20,638 bases of DNA from a virus. A model generated the notes under the pieces. It worked only from the letters and a program-made list of their open reading frames with translations. It did not search any database and was not told the origin of the DNA. Location of the stretch: IMG/VR virus record IMGVR_UViG_3300042523_000590, positions 1-20,638 of that record. The stretch is one strand, 5' to 3'. The position numbers were made by a program, and so were the translations under genes. Positions 1-18,014 of the stretch are shown piece after piece (the first letter of the stretch is position 1; every line of letters begins with the position of its first letter).

Positions 1-921
1 TATATTAAGTCTATAGTTTATTCTACCCTTTACTATAGTACCGTCTTCTTTTTTGTAAGATCCAACCCTACTTTTTTTTCTAACAATTCCACCTAAAGAA
101 TGTACTATTTCGGCAACATCATCGGCTAATTTTTCAGACACTGTTGAGTATTCTGTCCCAGTAAAATTACCGTTTTTTGATTTCATACAGTGACCATCAG
201 TATCCATAAGTCCTTGTAGAATAGAGAGTCTATCCTCTATTGAGGAATATTTATAGATATCAGGAATAAATTTAGAGTATGATAATTTACCATTTAAACC
301 TAATGATGTAATTTCTTTTTTAATGGTATTAATTAAATTGATTCTATTACCATTTTGTTCTTTACCCTCATTAATAAATTGATTAGTAAATATTTCATCA
401 AAATCATTTCCGTCTAATAAAATTCTAATATAACCTGAATTAGATATATGGCCATCACCAATGATAACACCTAACAAATATGGGTCAATAGGTAATTTAT
501 CATCATTACTAAATTGGATTGTCTTCACTATAGGTATTTGCCACTTATTTTGACCATTATTAGTTTTATAATAAGTTTTAAATTTATAAGATCTTTTTTT
601 ATTCCACCCTTTACCATACTGTTCTAACTCTAATTTTTCATCAATCATTTGTTCAACACTTAGTGTGTGATACTTATTTTCTTTATTTTTAGAGTTTTCT
701 CCACTATTATTACTACTTACAGTCCATAAATGTTCTTTACAACATAACGTAGAATACCCATCATTAAATGTTACCCTATATAAATCCTTAACCCCTTGTG
801 GGTATACCGCCTCAACTAAAGTAGGTTTTCCATCAGAACCGATAACATAATCACCTGATTTTATATTACCTATTTTTTCTCTTCCATAGGGTGTAAATAC
901 TTCAGAATTAACACACTGGGC
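1..921 (-). mobile_element. Intein with LAGLIDADG homing endonuclease, probable class 3 (partial)
   Basis: The intein begins directly after the Lys of GLGK, at nt 921. In this register residue 1 is Ala, Ser6-Glu7-Val8 align with the usual Thr6-x-Ile/Val8 of block A, and 'TPYG' follows at 10-13. Block B is 'TLCCKEHLW', with His64 and Trp66, so the Trp stands at B:12. The usual block B Thr is Cys61. Block C is at intein residues 149-158 and block E at 235-244, with catalytic Asp156 and Asp242, so the endonuclease looks intact. Blocks F and G are beyond the left edge. Restoration of GLGKT predicts Thr as the first C-extein residue. The alternative that Cys3 is really Cys1 of an ordinary class 1 intein cannot be excluded here, but it would leave Walker A as GLGKAQ. 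Confidence 0.85.
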
Positions 922-1455
922 TTTACCTAAACCCATGTCGTCCGCCAAAATACACTTTTTCTTCTTCATTAAGAACTTAATCCCATCCTCTTGATGTTTA
1001 AATGCCTTCCACCCTCTTTTATCTAATTTTTGATACTTATCAAAATCAATATCGATTTCTAATTCTTCATAATGAATATCATCTAATATTTGTGTTTTAG
1101 GTATCCATAATAATTTAACATCCTTTTGGTTTTTATATAACTTACATATAACGTGTATCGCTTTCTCCGATTCCGCCAATAAAGTTTCTAGAAATATTTT
1201 TTTAGGTGTTATTTTTAATTTGTGTTCTTCTTGTAATTCTTCAGAAAAATAATTAGTTAATTCTATAACTTTATTTAATACCTTTGGTTCAAAGGTAAAA
1301 TAATTTTTTACATAGTTTGACTGATTATTAGTAAGAAAATATTTTTTTTCGGTTTCTTTTTTTTTGCGCATGTAGTTAATATAAGGGTTTTTACCCTCAT
1401 ATGTCATAAGTAAATCTTCACTATCGAGATTTTTAATATCCTTAACATCCAACAT
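1..1455 (-). CDS. SNF2-family DNA helicase interrupted by a LAGLIDADG intein (3' end outside window)
   Basis: The frame is open from ATG at 1455 to the left edge (485 codons), so the protein is partial. Residues 1-178 are N-extein. They end in a SNF2/superfamily 2 motif I, with the upstream 'HQEDGIKFL' helix and then 'ILADDMGLGK' at about 169-178. The Walker A Thr is missing because an intein starts there: 'AQCVNSEVFTPYG', 'GDYVIG', and a block B 'CCKEHLW'. Two LAGLIDADG motifs follow, 'LLGVIIGDGH' (residues 327-336) and 'LQGLMDTDGH' (413-422), both with the acidic residue. After splicing the helicase would use ATP to translocate on DNA, as T4 UvsW-type and SNF2 proteins do in phage replication or recombination. 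The helicase and intein calls are firm. The intein C-terminus, C-extein and exact helicase subfamily lie outside the window. Confidence 0.88.
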   Translation of the reverse strand, partial: MLDVKDIKNLDSEDLLMTYEGKNPYINYMRKKKETEKKYFLTNNQSNYVKNYFTFEPKVLNKVIELTNYFSEELQEEHKLKITPKKIFLETLLAESEKAIHVICKLYKNQKDVKLLWIPKTQILDDIHYEELEIDIDFDKYQKLDKRGWKAFKHQEDGIKFLMKKKKCILADDMGLGKAQCVNSEVFTPYGREKIGNIKSGDYVIGSDGKPTLVEAVYPQGVKDLYRVTFNDGYSTLCCKEHLWTVSSNNSGENSKNKENKYHTLSVEQMIDEKLELEQYGKGWNKKRSYKFKTYYKTNNGQNKWQIPIVKTIQFSNDDKLPIDPYLLGVIIGDGHISNSGYIRILLDGNDFDEIFTNQFINEGKEQNGNRINLINTIKKEITSLGLNGKLSYSKFIPDIYKYSSIEDRLSILQGLMDTDGHCMKSKNGNFTGTEYSTVSEKLADDVAEIVHSLGGIVRKKSRVGSYKKEDGTIVKGRINYRLNI

Positions 1456-8729: not shown

Positions 8730-11585
8730 ATGGCATCAACAGACAGAATTTTTGTAAGTCCCGGAGTATTCACATCAGAAAAGGACTTAACATTCGTAAC
8801 GAGACAAGTCGGTGTAACAACATTAGGATTGTTAGGGGAAGTCCCTAAAGGTCCTGCGTTTGAACCGGTATTTGTTTCTAACTATGGTGAATTTATAAGT
8901 TATTTTGGAGGACTTAATCCTGAAAAATTTAAGGGTAGTGGTTTTCACAAATACGAATTAAATTATATCGCTAAATCATTTTTAACCCAAACCAACCAAT
9001 TGTATGTAAGTAGAGTTTTAGGTTTATCTGGTTATGATGCGGGTAATGCGTGGTCAATCACATTGGATTCCGCTGAGGATCCTAATACGGTAGGTAGTGC
9101 ATCTACAGTTACAGGTACGTTATTAACATATACCGCTAAAACAACAGGTAATCCAGTTACATTAAGTTGGAATAACGCTAACTTAGAGGCATTATATAAT
9201 GACGGTCAATTTTCACTATCAACATTAGGATTATTAAATACTGGACAGACTATTTCAATATCTAACCCAATATATGTTAAAACAGGATGTGACTTTAGTG
9301 GGGCAACTTTCGATATGGAAGTTATTGCCACAGGAACTAGTGGTGGATTTGTAACGGGTGTGACTAGTGGTACTGTAGTTAGTTATACCGCAACTTGTTT
9401 AACGGACATTGATGGTAGTGTTATTACAACATTGAGATCAAGAGGTGATTATGACGCAAATGAAGAATTAGTATTTGATGTTACAGGTGCAACTGACGCA
9501 GTTATGAGTAACACATCGAGTATTAAATCTAACGCATTGGCGTCATTCACAATTAATGGTACTGCAAGTAATGGTAATACATTTAGTTATGATGTATCAA
9601 TGGATAGAACTAAAAAGAATTTTTTACCTAGAGTATTTGGTAGTTCAACACAAGATAAAGAAACAGAATTATGGGTTGAGGAAATCTATACAAACGTATT
9701 GGAGGACTTAATTGGAAAAAGTCAAGTTAGAGGTTTAGATGTAACTTTCAATAGTATTTCAGGAACGTCAACAAATAACTTATCAAACTATAAAGAACAA
9801 TGGAAATCTGCTGTATCACCTTGGGTTCTTTCAGAATTAAAAGGTACTGGTACCGGCGCAACATTACAAAGACTTTTTAGATTTGTAACTATTTCTGATG
9901 GTAATGCGGCTAATCAAGATGTTAAATTCTCAATTGTCAATATACAACCTGATAATAAAACATTTGATTTGTTAGTTAGAAATTTTAACGATACAGACGC
10001 CAACCCATCTGTAATCGAAAAATTCTCTTCGTTGAATTTAGATGTTAATACAACAGGATTCATTGGGAGGAAAATAGGTACTAACGACGGGGAATACCCA
10101 TTAAGAAGTAAGTACATAATGGTTGAGTTCTACGATAATGACATACAATCTTCATATTTAGATGATCCTGATTTAGTTAATCACTTTCCTGCGGGATTTG
10201 AGGGTGTATTAAATAGAACTTACATTGGAACTAGAACTTCATTATCACCTAAGATTGAATACAAAACAGAATATACAGATTTTAATACTTCTAAATTAAG
10301 AAAAACTTATTTAGGGTTAAATAGTGATATCGGAGTAGATCAAGACTTCTTCGATTATAAAGGTAAAAACGCAGTTAACAACGGAGTATTCACAGGCAAA
10401 ACTGATGGATTCCACTTAGATGTAAACGCAAATGGTGCGACAGTTGATTTAGGAAATAATAGTTATGTTCCTACACTACAAGTTGGTGTGTCAGCGTTCA
10501 CATCAGACGCAGGATTAGTAGGTGGACCTTATGAGAAGTTAGCGTCAAGAAAATTCACATTCACATCATTCGGTGGATGGGATGGATGGGATGAGTATAG
10601 AACTCAAAGAACTAATGGTGACTCTTATACTAAGACAGGAACCAAAGGTTCTATAGGTTTAACAAACGGAACGTTCTCTACTTATGTAACATCTGAAGGT
10701 GATGATGGAATTACTTCTGACTACTACGCATACTTAGATGGTATTTACACTTTTAACAATCCTGAAGCGGTTAATATTAACGTATTCGCAACACCAGGTA
10801 TTGATTTAAGAGACAATATCAGTTTGATTGAAAATGCGGTAGATATGGTAGAAGTTGATAGAGCGGATTCACTATATGTAATCACAACACCCGATACTGA
10901 TGCAGATGGAATTGCGATAACTCCATCAGAAGCGGTAGACATTATAGAAGATTCGGGAATCGATTCTAATTATTCTGCCACATACTGGCCATGGTTACAG
11001 ATGAATGATACTGAAAATAACAGATATGTATGGTTACCACCGACATTAGAAGTTATGAGAAACATCGCCCTTACGGATAACGTAGCGTTCCCTTGGTTCG
11101 CAGCGGCAGGTTTAAATAGAGGAACTACAAACGCAATCAAAGCGAGAGTGAAACTTAAATTAGATGAAAGAGATGACTTATACGAAGGTAGAATTAACCC
11201 AATGGCGACATTCTCAGACGTAGGAGTTGTAATATTTGGTAATAAAACTTTACAAGTTAAAGAAACCGCACTTAACAGAATCAATGTTAGAAGATTGTTG
11301 TTACAGGCGAGAAAACTTATTTCAGCGGTGTCAATCAGATTGTTATTCGAACAAAATGATGATGTTGTAAGAAATCAGTTTTTAAGTTTGGTTAACCCAA
11401 TATTGGATAACATTAGAAAAGAGAGAGGTTTAACTGACTTTAGAGTTGTATTAGATGACACACCAGAGTCTATTGATAGAAACGAACTTAATGGTAGAAT
11501 CTTTATTAAACCAACAAGATCGTTAGAATTCATTTCAATTGAGTTCAACATCACCAACACTGGAGCATCTTTCGATGATATTTAA
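8730..11585 (+). CDS. gp18: Contractile tail sheath protein
   Basis: This 951-aa protein is a tail sheath by both ends. The N-terminus 'FVSPGVFTSEKDLTF' runs on to 'TTLGLLGEVPKGPAFEPV' and 'FVSNYGEFISYFGG' (residues about 8-70). The C-terminal core includes 'YWPWLQMND' and 'WLPPTLEVM' (about 750-775), 'FPWFAAAGLNRG' (about 786), 'NRINVRRLLLQARKLI' (about 848-863) and a last strand 'LEFISIEFNITNTG', which in sheath families links neighbouring subunits. Sheath subunits form helical rings around the tube and contract to drive injection. The protein is much longer than T4 gp18 (659 aa). The extra length lies in a beta-rich, Thr/Gly/Ser-rich middle and is probably surface domains. A strong terminator follows. 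Confidence 0.93.
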   Translation: MASTDRIFVSPGVFTSEKDLTFVTRQVGVTTLGLLGEVPKGPAFEPVFVSNYGEFISYFGGLNPEKFKGSGFHKYELNYIAKSFLTQTNQLYVSRVLGLSGYDAGNAWSITLDSAEDPNTVGSASTVTGTLLTYTAKTTGNPVTLSWNNANLEALYNDGQFSLSTLGLLNTGQTISISNPIYVKTGCDFSGATFDMEVIATGTSGGFVTGVTSGTVVSYTATCLTDIDGSVITTLRSRGDYDANEELVFDVTGATDAVMSNTSSIKSNALASFTINGTASNGNTFSYDVSMDRTKKNFLPRVFGSSTQDKETELWVEEIYTNVLEDLIGKSQVRGLDVTFNSISGTSTNNLSNYKEQWKSAVSPWVLSELKGTGTGATLQRLFRFVTISDGNAANQDVKFSIVNIQPDNKTFDLLVRNFNDTDANPSVIEKFSSLNLDVNTTGFIGRKIGTNDGEYPLRSKYIMVEFYDNDIQSSYLDDPDLVNHFPAGFEGVLNRTYIGTRTSLSPKIEYKTEYTDFNTSKLRKTYLGLNSDIGVDQDFFDYKGKNAVNNGVFTGKTDGFHLDVNANGATVDLGNNSYVPTLQVGVSAFTSDAGLVGGPYEKLASRKFTFTSFGGWDGWDEYRTQRTNGDSYTKTGTKGSIGLTNGTFSTYVTSEGDDGITSDYYAYLDGIYTFNNPEAVNINVFATPGIDLRDNISLIENAVDMVEVDRADSLYVITTPDTDADGIAITPSEAVDIIEDSGIDSNYSATYWPWLQMNDTENNRYVWLPPTLEVMRNIALTDNVAFPWFAAAGLNRGTTNAIKARVKLKLDERDDLYEGRINPMATFSDVGVVIFGNKTLQVKETALNRINVRRLLLQARKLISAVSIRLLFEQNDDVVRNQFLSLVNPILDNIRKERGLTDFRVVLDDTPESIDRNELNGRIFIKPTRSLEFISIEFNITNTGASFDDI

Positions 11586-15489: not shown

Positions 15490-16365
15490 ATGCAATTTAA
15501 ATGTGAAATATGTGATAAGGAATATGATACATTATGGAGTTTATCTTCTCATAATGTTAAAAAACATAAAATTAAACCGCAAGAAACTTTTATTAAACAT
15601 AATTTAGAAGGTAAAACACCTGAATGTAAATGTGGTTGTGGTGAGACACCAACATTCTTAGGAATTCAAAAAGGGTTTAGAGATTATATTAGAGGTCACG
15701 CATCTAGAATTAACAATAATTGGGGGCATAATGTTGACGCACAGAAAAAATCTAAAGATACACAAAGAAAGTTATATGGGTCAGGTGAAATTATAATATG
15801 GAATAAAGGGTTAACCAAAGAAGATGACGAAAGGTTAGATTATGGGGATAAGATAAGTTCTAATTTAGAAAGGAATGAAAAAATTTCAAAGTCACTTAAG
15901 GGTAGAAAACGTCCACAGTATGTTTTAGATAAACTTAATGAAGGTATGAGAGAATACTGGAGTAAGGAAGAGAACAAAGAAAAACAAAGTATTTTACAAT
16001 CCAAAAGAGTAAAAAATAACCATCACAAAAATAAAACTTTATTAGAAAATTATTTTGAGTCTATACTAATAAAATTAAAGTTAAAATATATATCTCAATA
16101 TACAATATGTGGTTATAATTTTGATTTTTATTTACCTAAATATGACTTAGTTATTGAGGTTGACGGTGATTTTTTTCACTGTAACCCAAAAAAATATCCA
16201 GAAGGTCCTATATATGAATCACAAACTAATACAATAAATAATGATAAAATAAAAAATAATATCTGTGATAAAAGTAATGGTATAAGATTACTAAGGTTTT
16301 GGGAAGACGACATCAACAATAATATTGAGTGGGTGATTGATGAGATTAAAAAACATATAATTTAA
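15490..16365 (+). CDS. Free-standing homing endonuclease, C2H2 finger + NUMOD3-like + Vsr/DUF559-like nuclease
   Basis: In this 291-aa protein, residues 5-26 form a C2H2 zinc finger (C5, C8, H21, H26). A Cys-rich 'CKCGCGE' follows (about 46-52). Residues about 104-142 ('WNKGLTKEDD...ISKSLKGRKRP') look like NUMOD3 DNA-binding repeats. The C-terminal nuclease has 'LENYFESIL' (Glu186/190), 'YNFDFYLP' (Asp212), 'VIEVDGDFFH' (Glu223, His230), Asp252 and 'GIRLLRFWEDDI', the Vsr/DUF559 pattern with all key residues present. It should make site-specific cuts that mobilise its gene. It starts just after the tube-gene terminator T-tract and is co-directional with the second downstream endonuclease. It is not homologous over its full length to the 535- and 526-aa enzymes. 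Confidence 0.83.
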   Translation: MQFKCEICDKEYDTLWSLSSHNVKKHKIKPQETFIKHNLEGKTPECKCGCGETPTFLGIQKGFRDYIRGHASRINNNWGHNVDAQKKSKDTQRKLYGSGEIIIWNKGLTKEDDERLDYGDKISSNLERNEKISKSLKGRKRPQYVLDKLNEGMREYWSKEENKEKQSILQSKRVKNNHHKNKTLLENYFESILIKLKLKYISQYTICGYNFDFYLPKYDLVIEVDGDFFHCNPKKYPEGPIYESQTNTINNDKIKNNICDKSNGIRLLRFWEDDINNNIEWVIDEIKKHII

Positions 16366-16433: not shown

Positions 16434-18014
16434 ATGGATTTTTCTTTTTTCACCACTGACAATAAATCTGGTTATAAGACTAACGAAAAGTGGTTTTCAA
16501 AAAATTATGTGGGTGAATATGATAATATTATAAATTATTGTTCTCCGTATGAATTATCAACCTTTAAAGAAAAGATATGGTTTTATTATCATAAACTATT
16601 AGAAGTCCCAAATTGTAGTTGTGGAAAAAAAACTAAATTCAGTAATAGGTTAGATAGGGGTTATAATGAATTTTGTTCACTTTCTTGTTTCAACAGTAAT
16701 AACAGTGAAATGGTGAAAAGGATAAAAGATACGAATCAAAAAAAATATGGTGTAGATTATTATACACAAACTGAAGATTTCATAAAAAAACAAAAAAATA
16801 CAAAAAAGGAAAAATACGGTGATGAAAACTACAATAATAAAGAAAAAATGTTGTCAACTAAATCATCTAAGTATGGAAATATAGGTTATAATAATTTTGA
16901 TAAATATAAACAAACTTGTATGAATCTTTATGGTGTTGACAATTATTCGAAATCAGAAGAATTTAGACAAAAACTTAAAGAAAAAATAAATGAGAGGTAT
17001 GAAGAATTAAACATTATTAATATTTCAAATGACTTAACATCTTTATCGATTATTTGTGATAAATGTGATGAAACATACGAAATTACACAAAATTTACTAA
17101 GGGAACGAAAAAAACATAACTATGAGTTATGTACAAACTGTAACCCAATAGGTATGTCATCATCCTCTTCATATGAAAACGAATTATATGAAATTTTAAC
17201 CCATTGGGGAGTTGGGGTGGAAAGACATAAAAAAATAAAAGGTGATAATAGAGAAATAGATTTGTTTATACCGAGTCACAACATAGGTATAGAAATTAAT
17301 GGGTTATATTGGTACAATGAACTTTTTATTAATAAAGATTATCATTTTGAAAAAACAAAATTATGTAGAGATAATGGTATTGATTTAATTCACGTTTTTG
17401 AGGATGAGTGGTTATGGAAAAAAGATATTGTATTATCTGTATTAAAAAATAGACTTAATAACATAAATAAAAAAATTTATGGTAGGAAGTGTGATATTGT
17501 TGAGATTAGTTCCTCTATTAGTAAAACATTTTTAGATGAAAATCATCTTCAGGGTAACGTAAATACAACATTAAAATTTGGGTTATTACATAATGATGAA
17601 TTGGTGTCAGTAATGACATTTGGGAAACGTAATGGTATAGGTAATGGTGAGGAATGGGAATTAATAAGATTTTCCAATAAAATAAATTATAATGTGATAG
17701 GTGGGGGATCAAAATTATTTAAGTATTTCTTAAAAAAAATTAACCCTAAAATAGTAAAATCGTATTCCGATAATAGATGGTTTAGTGGGGGATTATATGA
17801 AAATTTAGGTTTTAAATATATACACGAAACAAAACCTAATTACTGGTATGTGAAAAATGATATGAGATATCATAGACTAAACTTCAAAAAAAATCGGTTG
17901 GTTGGTGAAGGTTTTGATAAAAATAAAACTGAAAAACAAATTATGTTCGATAGAAAAATATATAGGGTGTACGATTGTGGTAATAAACTATGGTTGTACG
18001 AACATATCATATAA
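16434..18014 (+). CDS. Homing endonuclease paralogue, Vsr-like/EDxHD type, with altered catalytic His
   Basis: This 526-aa protein is collinear with the antisense enzyme at 13244-14851, beginning with the shared 'DNKSG.KT' and ending with 'EGFD.NKTE..IMF.R...R.YDCGN'. It keeps the zinc cysteines (C61, C63, C81, C85; C208, C211, C233, C236), the repeat region, 'EIDLF' (Asp276), 'GIEINGLYW' (Glu287), 'YHFEKT' and 'LIHVFEDEW'. The C-terminal Mom/GNAT-like domain (about 353-480) is intact ('LLHNDELVSVMTFGKR', 'NVIGGGSKLFKYF', 'SYSDNRWFSGGLY'). The oddity is Tyr294, where the paralogue and the family as I know it have His (GLYxH). Cutting may be weak or lost, although the frame is undamaged. It has its own promoter-like motif and a terminator. 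Confidence 0.84.
   Translation: MDFSFFTTDNKSGYKTNEKWFSKNYVGEYDNIINYCSPYELSTFKEKIWFYYHKLLEVPNCSCGKKTKFSNRLDRGYNEFCSLSCFNSNNSEMVKRIKDTNQKKYGVDYYTQTEDFIKKQKNTKKEKYGDENYNNKEKMLSTKSSKYGNIGYNNFDKYKQTCMNLYGVDNYSKSEEFRQKLKEKINERYEELNIINISNDLTSLSIICDKCDETYEITQNLLRERKKHNYELCTNCNPIGMSSSSSYENELYEILTHWGVGVERHKKIKGDNREIDLFIPSHNIGIEINGLYWYNELFINKDYHFEKTKLCRDNGIDLIHVFEDEWLWKKDIVLSVLKNRLNNINKKIYGRKCDIVEISSSISKTFLDENHLQGNVNTTLKFGLLHNDELVSVMTFGKRNGIGNGEEWELIRFSNKINYNVIGGGSKLFKYFLKKINPKIVKSYSDNRWFSGGLYENLGFKYIHETKPNYWYVKNDMRYHRLNFKKNRLVGEGFDKNKTEKQIMFDRKIYRVYDCGNKLWLYEHII

Follow-up and report, generated by a model that had tools for sequence, protein, structure and literature searches.

Class 3 inteins and the helicase locus

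Class 3 inteins splice through two branched intermediates, with the Cys at block F:4 as the first nucleophile (PMC5222942). The working examples described in PMC3196547 include those of Deinococcus radiodurans Snf2 (Dra Snf2), the mycobacteriophage Bethlehem DnaB (MP-Be DnaB), and MP-Catera Gp206. A census from 2020 comprised 1,701 class 3 inteins, defined by the lack of an N-end cysteine together with Cys F:4, and gave LAGLIDADG in 82.5% of them (PMC7891396 section 6). The junction between the Lys and the Thr of the P-loop is a classic insertion site (PMC5050341), and the helicase DnaB of Mycobacterium smegmatis carries inteins of both class 3 and class 1 (PMC6195587). The origin of class 3 from class 1 is treated as unsettled in PMC3196547 and PMC7664689.

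The window, which is the whole stretch of DNA analyzed here, is a virus record of 20,638 bases carrying tail sheath and tail tube genes; hence, "phage" is a fair label for it. On its minus strand, an ORF of 485 aa (1455..1) has no stop and exits the left end of the window. Almost certainly, this ORF holds most of a full-length class 3 intein (intein 1) with a LAGLIDADG endonuclease, which separates the Lys from the Thr of Walker A in an SNF2-type phage helicase. The features of the ORF are as follows:

922..1455, minus strand: N-extein, the first 178 aa of the SNF2-type helicase, ending ILADDMGLGK (Walker A through the Lys); the intein-free relative L084 shares ILADDMGLGK and then reads T
924..922, minus strand: Lys codon of GLGK
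1..921, minus strand: predicted class 3 intein, the first 307 of its 370 residues, with the C-terminal 63 lying past the contig end; complete copy at L002:4359-5468
919..921, minus strand: Ala1, the first intein residue, no nucleophile; register from the empty alleles GLGK/TYQS
739..741, minus strand: Cys61, block B:7, the partner of residue 1 by co-variation; class 1 usually has Thr here
730..732, minus strand: His64, block B:10, the catalytic His; kept in 72/72 relatives
724..726, minus strand: Trp66, block B:12, the W of the WCT signature; Trp in 69/72 and Phe in 3/72 relatives
451..477, minus strand: LAGLIDADG block 1, LLGVIIGDG; GDG in the window, GDD in L002 and L003
193..219, minus strand: LAGLIDADG block 2, LQGLMDTDG

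Block A (TPYG) and block B (Cys61-Lys-Glu-His64-Leu-Trp66) are both present in the window ORF. The preliminary description of this DNA had read Ala1, a Cys in place of the block B Thr, the His, and a Trp two residues on, and all four are as it claimed. It had placed the intein at 1-924; the intein is there, but its proper extent is 921..1, as the earlier range takes in the Lys codon.

Intein 1 shares the WCT signature, the lack of an N-terminal nucleophile, His B:10, the terminal His-Asn, and a Ser or Thr at +1 with the inteins of D. radiodurans Snf2, mycobacteriophage Bethlehem DnaB, and M. smegmatis DnaB (DnaBi1). It differs from these class 3 cases in its host, the SNF2 helicase of an uncultured contractile-tailed phage, and from DnaBi1, a mini-intein, in having a full LAGLIDADG domain. 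M. smegmatis DnaB, like the present helicase, combines a class 3 intein in the P-loop with a second intein of class 1 (PMC6195587), although the latter lies in a DNA-binding loop there and in motif VI here. The comparison with named class 3 inteins ran through their solved structures only. The D. radiodurans Snf2 intein has the same host family by name only, and a scan of genome contigs for this comparison gave five loci, none titled Deinococcus. The host had been put forward as a different protein family for class 3 inteins; this novelty is lost, as the D. radiodurans Snf2 intein was already characterized as class 3 (PMC3196547). Since class 3 is well established, intein 1 is a further case of an already described class, and its host family was known as well.

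Complete gene and insertion site

Viral contigs were searched with the part of the gene present in the window, which gave 131 relatives, from which 80 loci were kept. Two contigs are near-identical to the window: L002 (77.7 kb), with 99.96% identity over 5,279 nt, and L003 (128.6 kb), with 99.97% identity over 6,927 nt. Both contain the whole helicase gene as an open frame of 1,327 aa. Blocks F and G lie outside the window and were read in these two contigs. There, intein 1 comprises 370 aa, GLGK/AQCV…CKEHLW…AVCIQV…VTHN/TYQS, and its C-terminus, …QGEAVCIQVAAEDHLYVTEHGIVTHN/TYQSIV, harbors Cys F:4 (Cys350, in AVCIQV), Thr G:5 (Thr368), His G:6, the terminal Asn G:7 (Asn370), and Thr+1. Cys F:4, Thr G:5, the terminal Asn, and Thr+1 had been named beforehand as the residues to look for, and all of them were found.

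Over the 307 residues of the window intein, the sole difference from L002 is at residue 157 (Gly vs. Asp), and L003 differs at residues 157 and 80. Residue 157 is the Gly of LAGLIDADG block 1, which is nearly invariant among 30 relatives; as L002 and L003 read GDD at this place, their endonuclease may be impaired.

The register of intein 1 was set by intein-free alleles. The search with the C-extein gave 25 loci, and L082, L083, L089, and L096 were left out as contigs already counted as intein-bearing. From the 21 loci counted, 19 cover an uninterrupted site 1, L105 stops short of the site, and only L100 bears an intein. L098 is empty by alignment only, as its Walker A did not fit the search pattern. 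The closest intein-free allele, L084, shares 89% identity with the query over the region searched, and its sequence at the site is ADDMGLGK/TYQSIVAALE. In an affine-gap alignment of the ORFs to L084, which used no intein motif, the insert was located at K178/T179, and the site-1 insert follows K178 in all reporting loci but one (L039, in which the aligner moved the insertion by three residues and which was excluded from the motif-free set described below). Loci starting inside the intein were not scored as empty, L119 and L120 end before site 1, and seven loci repeating an already counted contig were skipped in the gap alignment and in the conservation counts.

The intein-free alleles and the motif-free gap alignment thus make Ala1, and not Cys3, residue 1 of the intein. 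The Ala1 register of the preliminary description agrees with the empty alleles (GLGK/TYQS), as does its insertion between the Walker A Lys and Thr, which is seen as GLGK/…/TYQS in L002 and L003. A class 1 intein in the Cys3 register would start with CVNSEVFTPYG and leave Ala-Gln in the N-extein. Cys3 does exist, most inteins start with Cys or Ser, and C-V-N-S-E-V resembles class 1 at first glance; however, the empty alleles carry no AQ, which excludes this register. Moreover, residue 3 is Cys in just 2 of 45 dereplicated relatives, with 12 different residues at this position, and in the structural alignment with the class 3 structure 6bs8, the aligned range opens with residue 1 of the predicted structure, opposite residue 1 of 6bs8. 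We give the Cys3 register next to no probability.

Class 1 inteins begin with Cys1, Ser1, or Thr1. Intein 1 begins with Ala in the window, L002, and L003, and this Ala1 is accompanied by the class 3 residues Trp66 at B:12, Cys350 at F:4, Thr368 at G:5, and Thr+1. Ala1 is also known in class 2 inteins of the KlbA type (PMC4031507), in which the +1 residue attacks directly. Nevertheless, class 2 goes with Cys+1, Ser at G:6, and a KlbA host, and the members described in PMC4031507 are all KlbA orthologues, whereas intein 1 has Thr+1, His at G:6, and an SNF2 helicase as host; its relatives conserve Cys F:4 and, nearly always, Trp B:12. Class 2 was rejected on Thr+1, His G:6, and the conserved Cys F:4, and its probability is negligible.

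The C-extein, read in L002, harbors SNF2 (PF00176, 3e-23) and Helicase_C (PF00271, 2.6e-14) domains, and the helicase extein matches PHROG 62 'DNA helicase' (3.2e-84). Both LAGLIDADG motifs align across 30 relatives, and Pfam LAGLIDADG_3 matches the window protein at 1.4e-7, above the model cut-off. With the full signature in L002 and L003 and the register given by empty alleles, the earlier proposal of a class 3 intein in a phage SNF2 helicase holds.

Predicted structure

AlphaFold2, run on an alignment of 30 sequences, provided a model with a mean pLDDT of 89.3 and a pTM of 0.88, in which a Hint domain is combined with a LAGLIDADG fold. The closest full-length fold is PI-SceI (the VMA intein), with a Z of 25.3 over 319 residues and about 20% identity over aligned residues, and the two share the architecture of Hint plus LAGLIDADG endonuclease. 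PI-SceI is a class 1 intein with Cys1. The splicing domain of the model, compared with the class 3 intein of M. smegmatis DnaB (6bs8), gave a Z of 19.5 and an rmsd of 1.4 Å over 123/125 residues, and the aligned ranges begin at residue 1 in both. In the structural ranking of the splicing domain among endonuclease-free inteins, 6bs8 is the nearest, followed by 6riy/6rix. By sequence, the best solved structure is the gp41-1 variant 6riz (C1A, F65W, D107C) with 44 bits, and the wild type 6qaz has 38.

Intein 1 has no match to Pfam Intein_splicing at E <= 0.01, and its splicing blocks are spanned by none of the NCBIfam intein models. The Hint part was recognized from a sub-threshold match to Pfam Hom_end_hint (5e-4), the predicted structure, and motif conservation. 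The LAGLIDADG endonuclease of the preliminary description is borne out by the two LAGLIDADG-type motifs, the LAGLIDADG_3 match, and the PI-SceI-like predicted fold.

Conservation of catalytic residues and proposed splicing

For the conservation analysis, we used a motif-free set of 72 full inteins from relatives found by similarity to the window intein or the C-extein. The inteins were located by the gap alignment of each ORF to an intein-free helicase, and no catalytic motif was demanded; the set includes near-identical contigs, and 45 inteins were left under 97% identity. No variation was seen at His B:10, Cys F:4, Thr G:5, His G:6, or Asn G:7 (72/72 each), and B:12 is Trp in 69 and Phe in three. 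Lys-1 and Thr+1 are kept in all 45 dereplicated inteins. At residue 1, the same 45 carry Cys (12), Ala (11), Gly (6), Phe (6), Met (5), Leu (3), and Ser (2), and at least 20 changes of this residue are needed on a tree from which the first six positions had been omitted.

Chance would not be a reasonable account of these conserved catalytic residues. Because residue 1 may be Met, Phe, Leu, or Gly, it cannot be the obligatory nucleophile, and the unchanging Cys F:4 can. The variable residue 1 with the fixed Cys F:4 is the strongest sequence evidence for the predicted class 3 route. The use of residue 1 as a class marker in the preliminary description is not sustained, since A, C, G, F, M, L, or S occurs at the same site while Cys F:4 is constant.

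A degenerate intein that no longer splices, with the helicase gene lost, would have a precedent in the putative class 3 intein Arsp-FB24 Arth_1007, a proven pseudogene (PMC3196547), and the ORF of one relative (L009, on the same contig as L118) stops within its second intein. The catalytic residues of intein 1 are intact, though, the frame of 1,327 aa is open in two contigs of the window's species, and the five residues at B:10, F:4, G:5, G:6, and G:7 do not vary in the 72 relatives, which makes an inactive intein very improbable.

For an active class 3 intein, the precursor with the intein in place would not bind ATP, and we infer on sound grounds that the helicase is inactive before splicing. 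Cys350 (F:4), aided by His64 (B:10) and Thr368 (G:5), would attack the Lys-Ala1 peptide bond, and this attack would form the branched thioester at block F. The N-extein would then pass to Thr+1, Asn370 would cyclize and release the intein, and an acyl shift would yield GLGK-T, with Walker A complete. A second, putative class 1 intein, located in motif VI of the same protein, would also have to leave before the helicase works. The endonuclease domain is predicted to cut intein-free alleles, and the element would thereby be copied between phages.

Co-variation of residue 1 and block B:7

The link between residue 1 and B:7, which lies three residues before the catalytic His, was first noticed in the 45 dereplicated inteins. 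For a wider set, 178 of 240 loci passed a motif script that demanded a preceding GK, Cys F:4, and an end of T/S/A/V followed by HN or HQ; 84 were left under 90% identity after one locus (L239), for which the script had picked the wrong start, was dropped. The 62 loci missed by the script comprise empty alleles, fragments, and also real inteins with other spacing or sites, such as L024 and L038, which are within the motif-free set. Cys F:4 is fixed by construction in the wide set, so only the motif-free set of 72 speaks for F:4. Nine of the 84 (L007, L008, L045, L158, L159, L167, L170, L193, and L200) have Phe instead of Trp at B:12 and represent a natural W-to-F series of the WCT signature.

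When residue 1 is bulky or charged (not A, G, S, or C), B:7 is Gly in 18 of 19 inteins, vs. 7 of 65 in the rest (Fisher 9e-12). Gly1 is paired with Asp B:7 in 13 of 13, vs. 8 of 71 others. With Ala1 (n=36), B:7 is Cys in 16, Asp in eight, Ser in six, Gly in three, Thr in two, and Asn in one. The bulky/Gly link survived phylogenetic control, with nine supported independent pairs and a median p of 0.016; on average, B:7 differed in the same way in 6.7 pairs, in the other way in none, and showed no difference in 2.4. The Gly1/Asp link did not reach significance under the same control, as its three supported independent pairs are too few for a test.

By APC-corrected mutual information, B:7 is the top partner of residue 1 among 333 other columns, and the pair ranks 11th of 55,611. 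By raw mutual information, B:7 falls outside the top eight partners of residue 1 and columns of the endonuclease domain lead; hence, part of the raw signal is common descent. The rule was also seen in a distant set of 26 inteins, drawn from bacteria, other phages, and other host proteins, in which a bulky or charged residue 1 goes with Gly in 5/6 and other residues in 0/20 (Fisher 9e-5), although six of the 26 were already known when the rule was framed and the other 20 give 3/4 and 0/16. The exception in the distant set is L231, with Arg1 and Cys.

As B:7 has been placed near residue 1 (Asp62 and Ala1, PMC6195587), the plain reading of the pairing is a steric fit that would hold the scissile bond in place. 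Section 10 of PMC7891396 describes no conserved residue at B:7 for class 3 inteins in general; the present counts suggest that this position is tied to residue 1. Full-text literature searches, which covered few subscription journals and, in part, 10 of 1,600 hits judged by title and opening of the abstract, showed no report of such co-variation. The pairing provides a concrete rule for splicing reporters.

Relatives with Cys1

Cys1 occurs together with the internal Cys F:4 in 15 of the 84 dereplicated relatives. Tori and Perler are said to have widened class 3, in 2011, so that it included an intein whose residue 1 is a different nucleophile. The census definition given in section 6 of PMC7891396 excludes an N-end cysteine, and inteins with Cys1 and Cys F:4 therefore fall outside that census.

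The Cys1 relatives, as distinct from the window copy, could follow the class 1 route in splicing or use the two routes together, in which case the family would not be purely class 3; we regard this as possible but rather unlikely. At B:7, five of the 15 have Thr and two have Ser, as in the TxxH of class 1, but the other eight have Cys (4) or Gly (4). The association of Cys1 with Thr or Ser at B:7 (Fisher 0.004) was not significant on independent pairs (1.9 the same, 0.3 opposite, of five) and serves as a lead only. Cys F:4 and Thr G:5, in turn, stay fixed (72/72 in the motif-free set), and the switches between Cys1 and other residues, at least six on the tree, are as expected for a dispensable residue.

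It is also conceivable, as a tentative proposal, that the helicase-intein relatives form a natural series across the boundary between class 3 and class 1. Residue 1 and B:7 would be interlocked (a bulky or charged residue 1 paired with Gly, Gly1 with Asp, Ala1 mostly with Cys, Asp, or Ser, and Cys1 also with Thr or Ser) while F:4 and G:5 remain constant. Inteins that combine Cys1, Thr B:7, and Cys F:4 have both nucleophiles and might then splice either way, which would allow a step between the classes without loss of activity.

Distribution and mobility

Of 50,697 phage records searched by tblastn with intein 1, 726 had a match, and no match reached 60% identity. In four cultured phages, Brevundimonas phage Papperlapapp, Pseudomonas phage PhiPA3 (gp233), Escherichia phage EC001, and Mycobacterium phage Alice (gp175), the insert directly follows GxGK. 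These inteins are about 32-36% identical to the window protein and share HLW (Trp B:12), Cys F:4, and THN/T (S in Alice) with intein 1, as well as LAGLIDADG by eye. Their residue 1 is Met in Papperlapapp, Ala in PhiPA3, Cys in EC001, and Ala in Alice. Class 3-type inteins after the same helicase Walker A Lys in cultured phages further reduce the novelty claimed for the locus. The four genes are annotated as helicase or DarB-like antirestriction, and the annotation stretches shown list no intein. When the L100 and PhiPA3 inteins served as queries, they retrieved little other than themselves.

Among the matches listed, some Salmonella phage records are already annotated as intein-containing helicases. 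The names of the listed GenBank phage genes under the intein match include terminase, RNA polymerase beta subunit, RNA ligase, gyrase, DarB-like antirestriction, and HNH endonuclease; some of these very mixed names may be right for the extein and others wrong.

L055 and L068 are 78% identical in the intein and 42% in the extein, whereas L002 and L100 are 55% identical in the intein and 78% in the extein. Such unequal values, taken from pair identities only, would fit a mobile element. The relatives are more useful than the window intein itself, as they represent a dense class 3-type set at one exact site, covering full, empty, single, and double states.

Second intein in the helicase

The second intein is an insert of 360 aa in helicase motif VI, QAEDR/CIFGGQ…YDLSVEDDNSFVVGIYNVHN/CYRIGQ, at L002:6555-7634 and likewise in L003. 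By its residues (Cys1, Asn, and Cys+1), it is classified as a predicted class 1 intein, and it matches Pfam Intein_splicing at 6.7e-8 with 32.9 bits (cut-off 35.8). All four occupancy states are present among the relatives: neither site, site 1 only, both, and site 2 only. Both inteins were found in L002, L003, L029, L033, L035, L040, L041, and L051, and site 2 only in L121-L124, in which site 1 reads GAGK/SYQS.

Close relatives from the C-extein search with an insert-free motif VI have Ala at the position of Cys+1, so an intein-bearing protein would retain a Cys there after splicing. In more distant insert-free motifs, Ser or Cys also occurs at the +1 position. The helicase ORF of L009 ends in the second intein, although the match spans its full length, and this intein may be decayed or the stop may be a sequencing error.

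Other genes in the window

The tail sheath was identified by PHROG and Pfam. Its best-scoring PHROG and Pfam stretches all lie past residue 517, and the N-terminal half is mostly without a best match among those listed; PHROG 23 has a second stretch. Three free-standing homing-endonuclease-like genes lie near the tail tube gene. The coordinates are as follows:

8730-11585, plus strand: tail sheath, 951 aa
13244-14851, minus strand: free-standing homing-endonuclease-like gene
15490-16365, plus strand: free-standing homing-endonuclease-like gene
16434-18014, plus strand: free-standing homing-endonuclease-like gene

Two of the three free-standing genes match PHROG 3339 'homing endonuclease' (4.4e-136 and 5.5e-112), and the third matches DUF559 (1.4e-7), with sub-threshold Vsr and zinc-finger matches.
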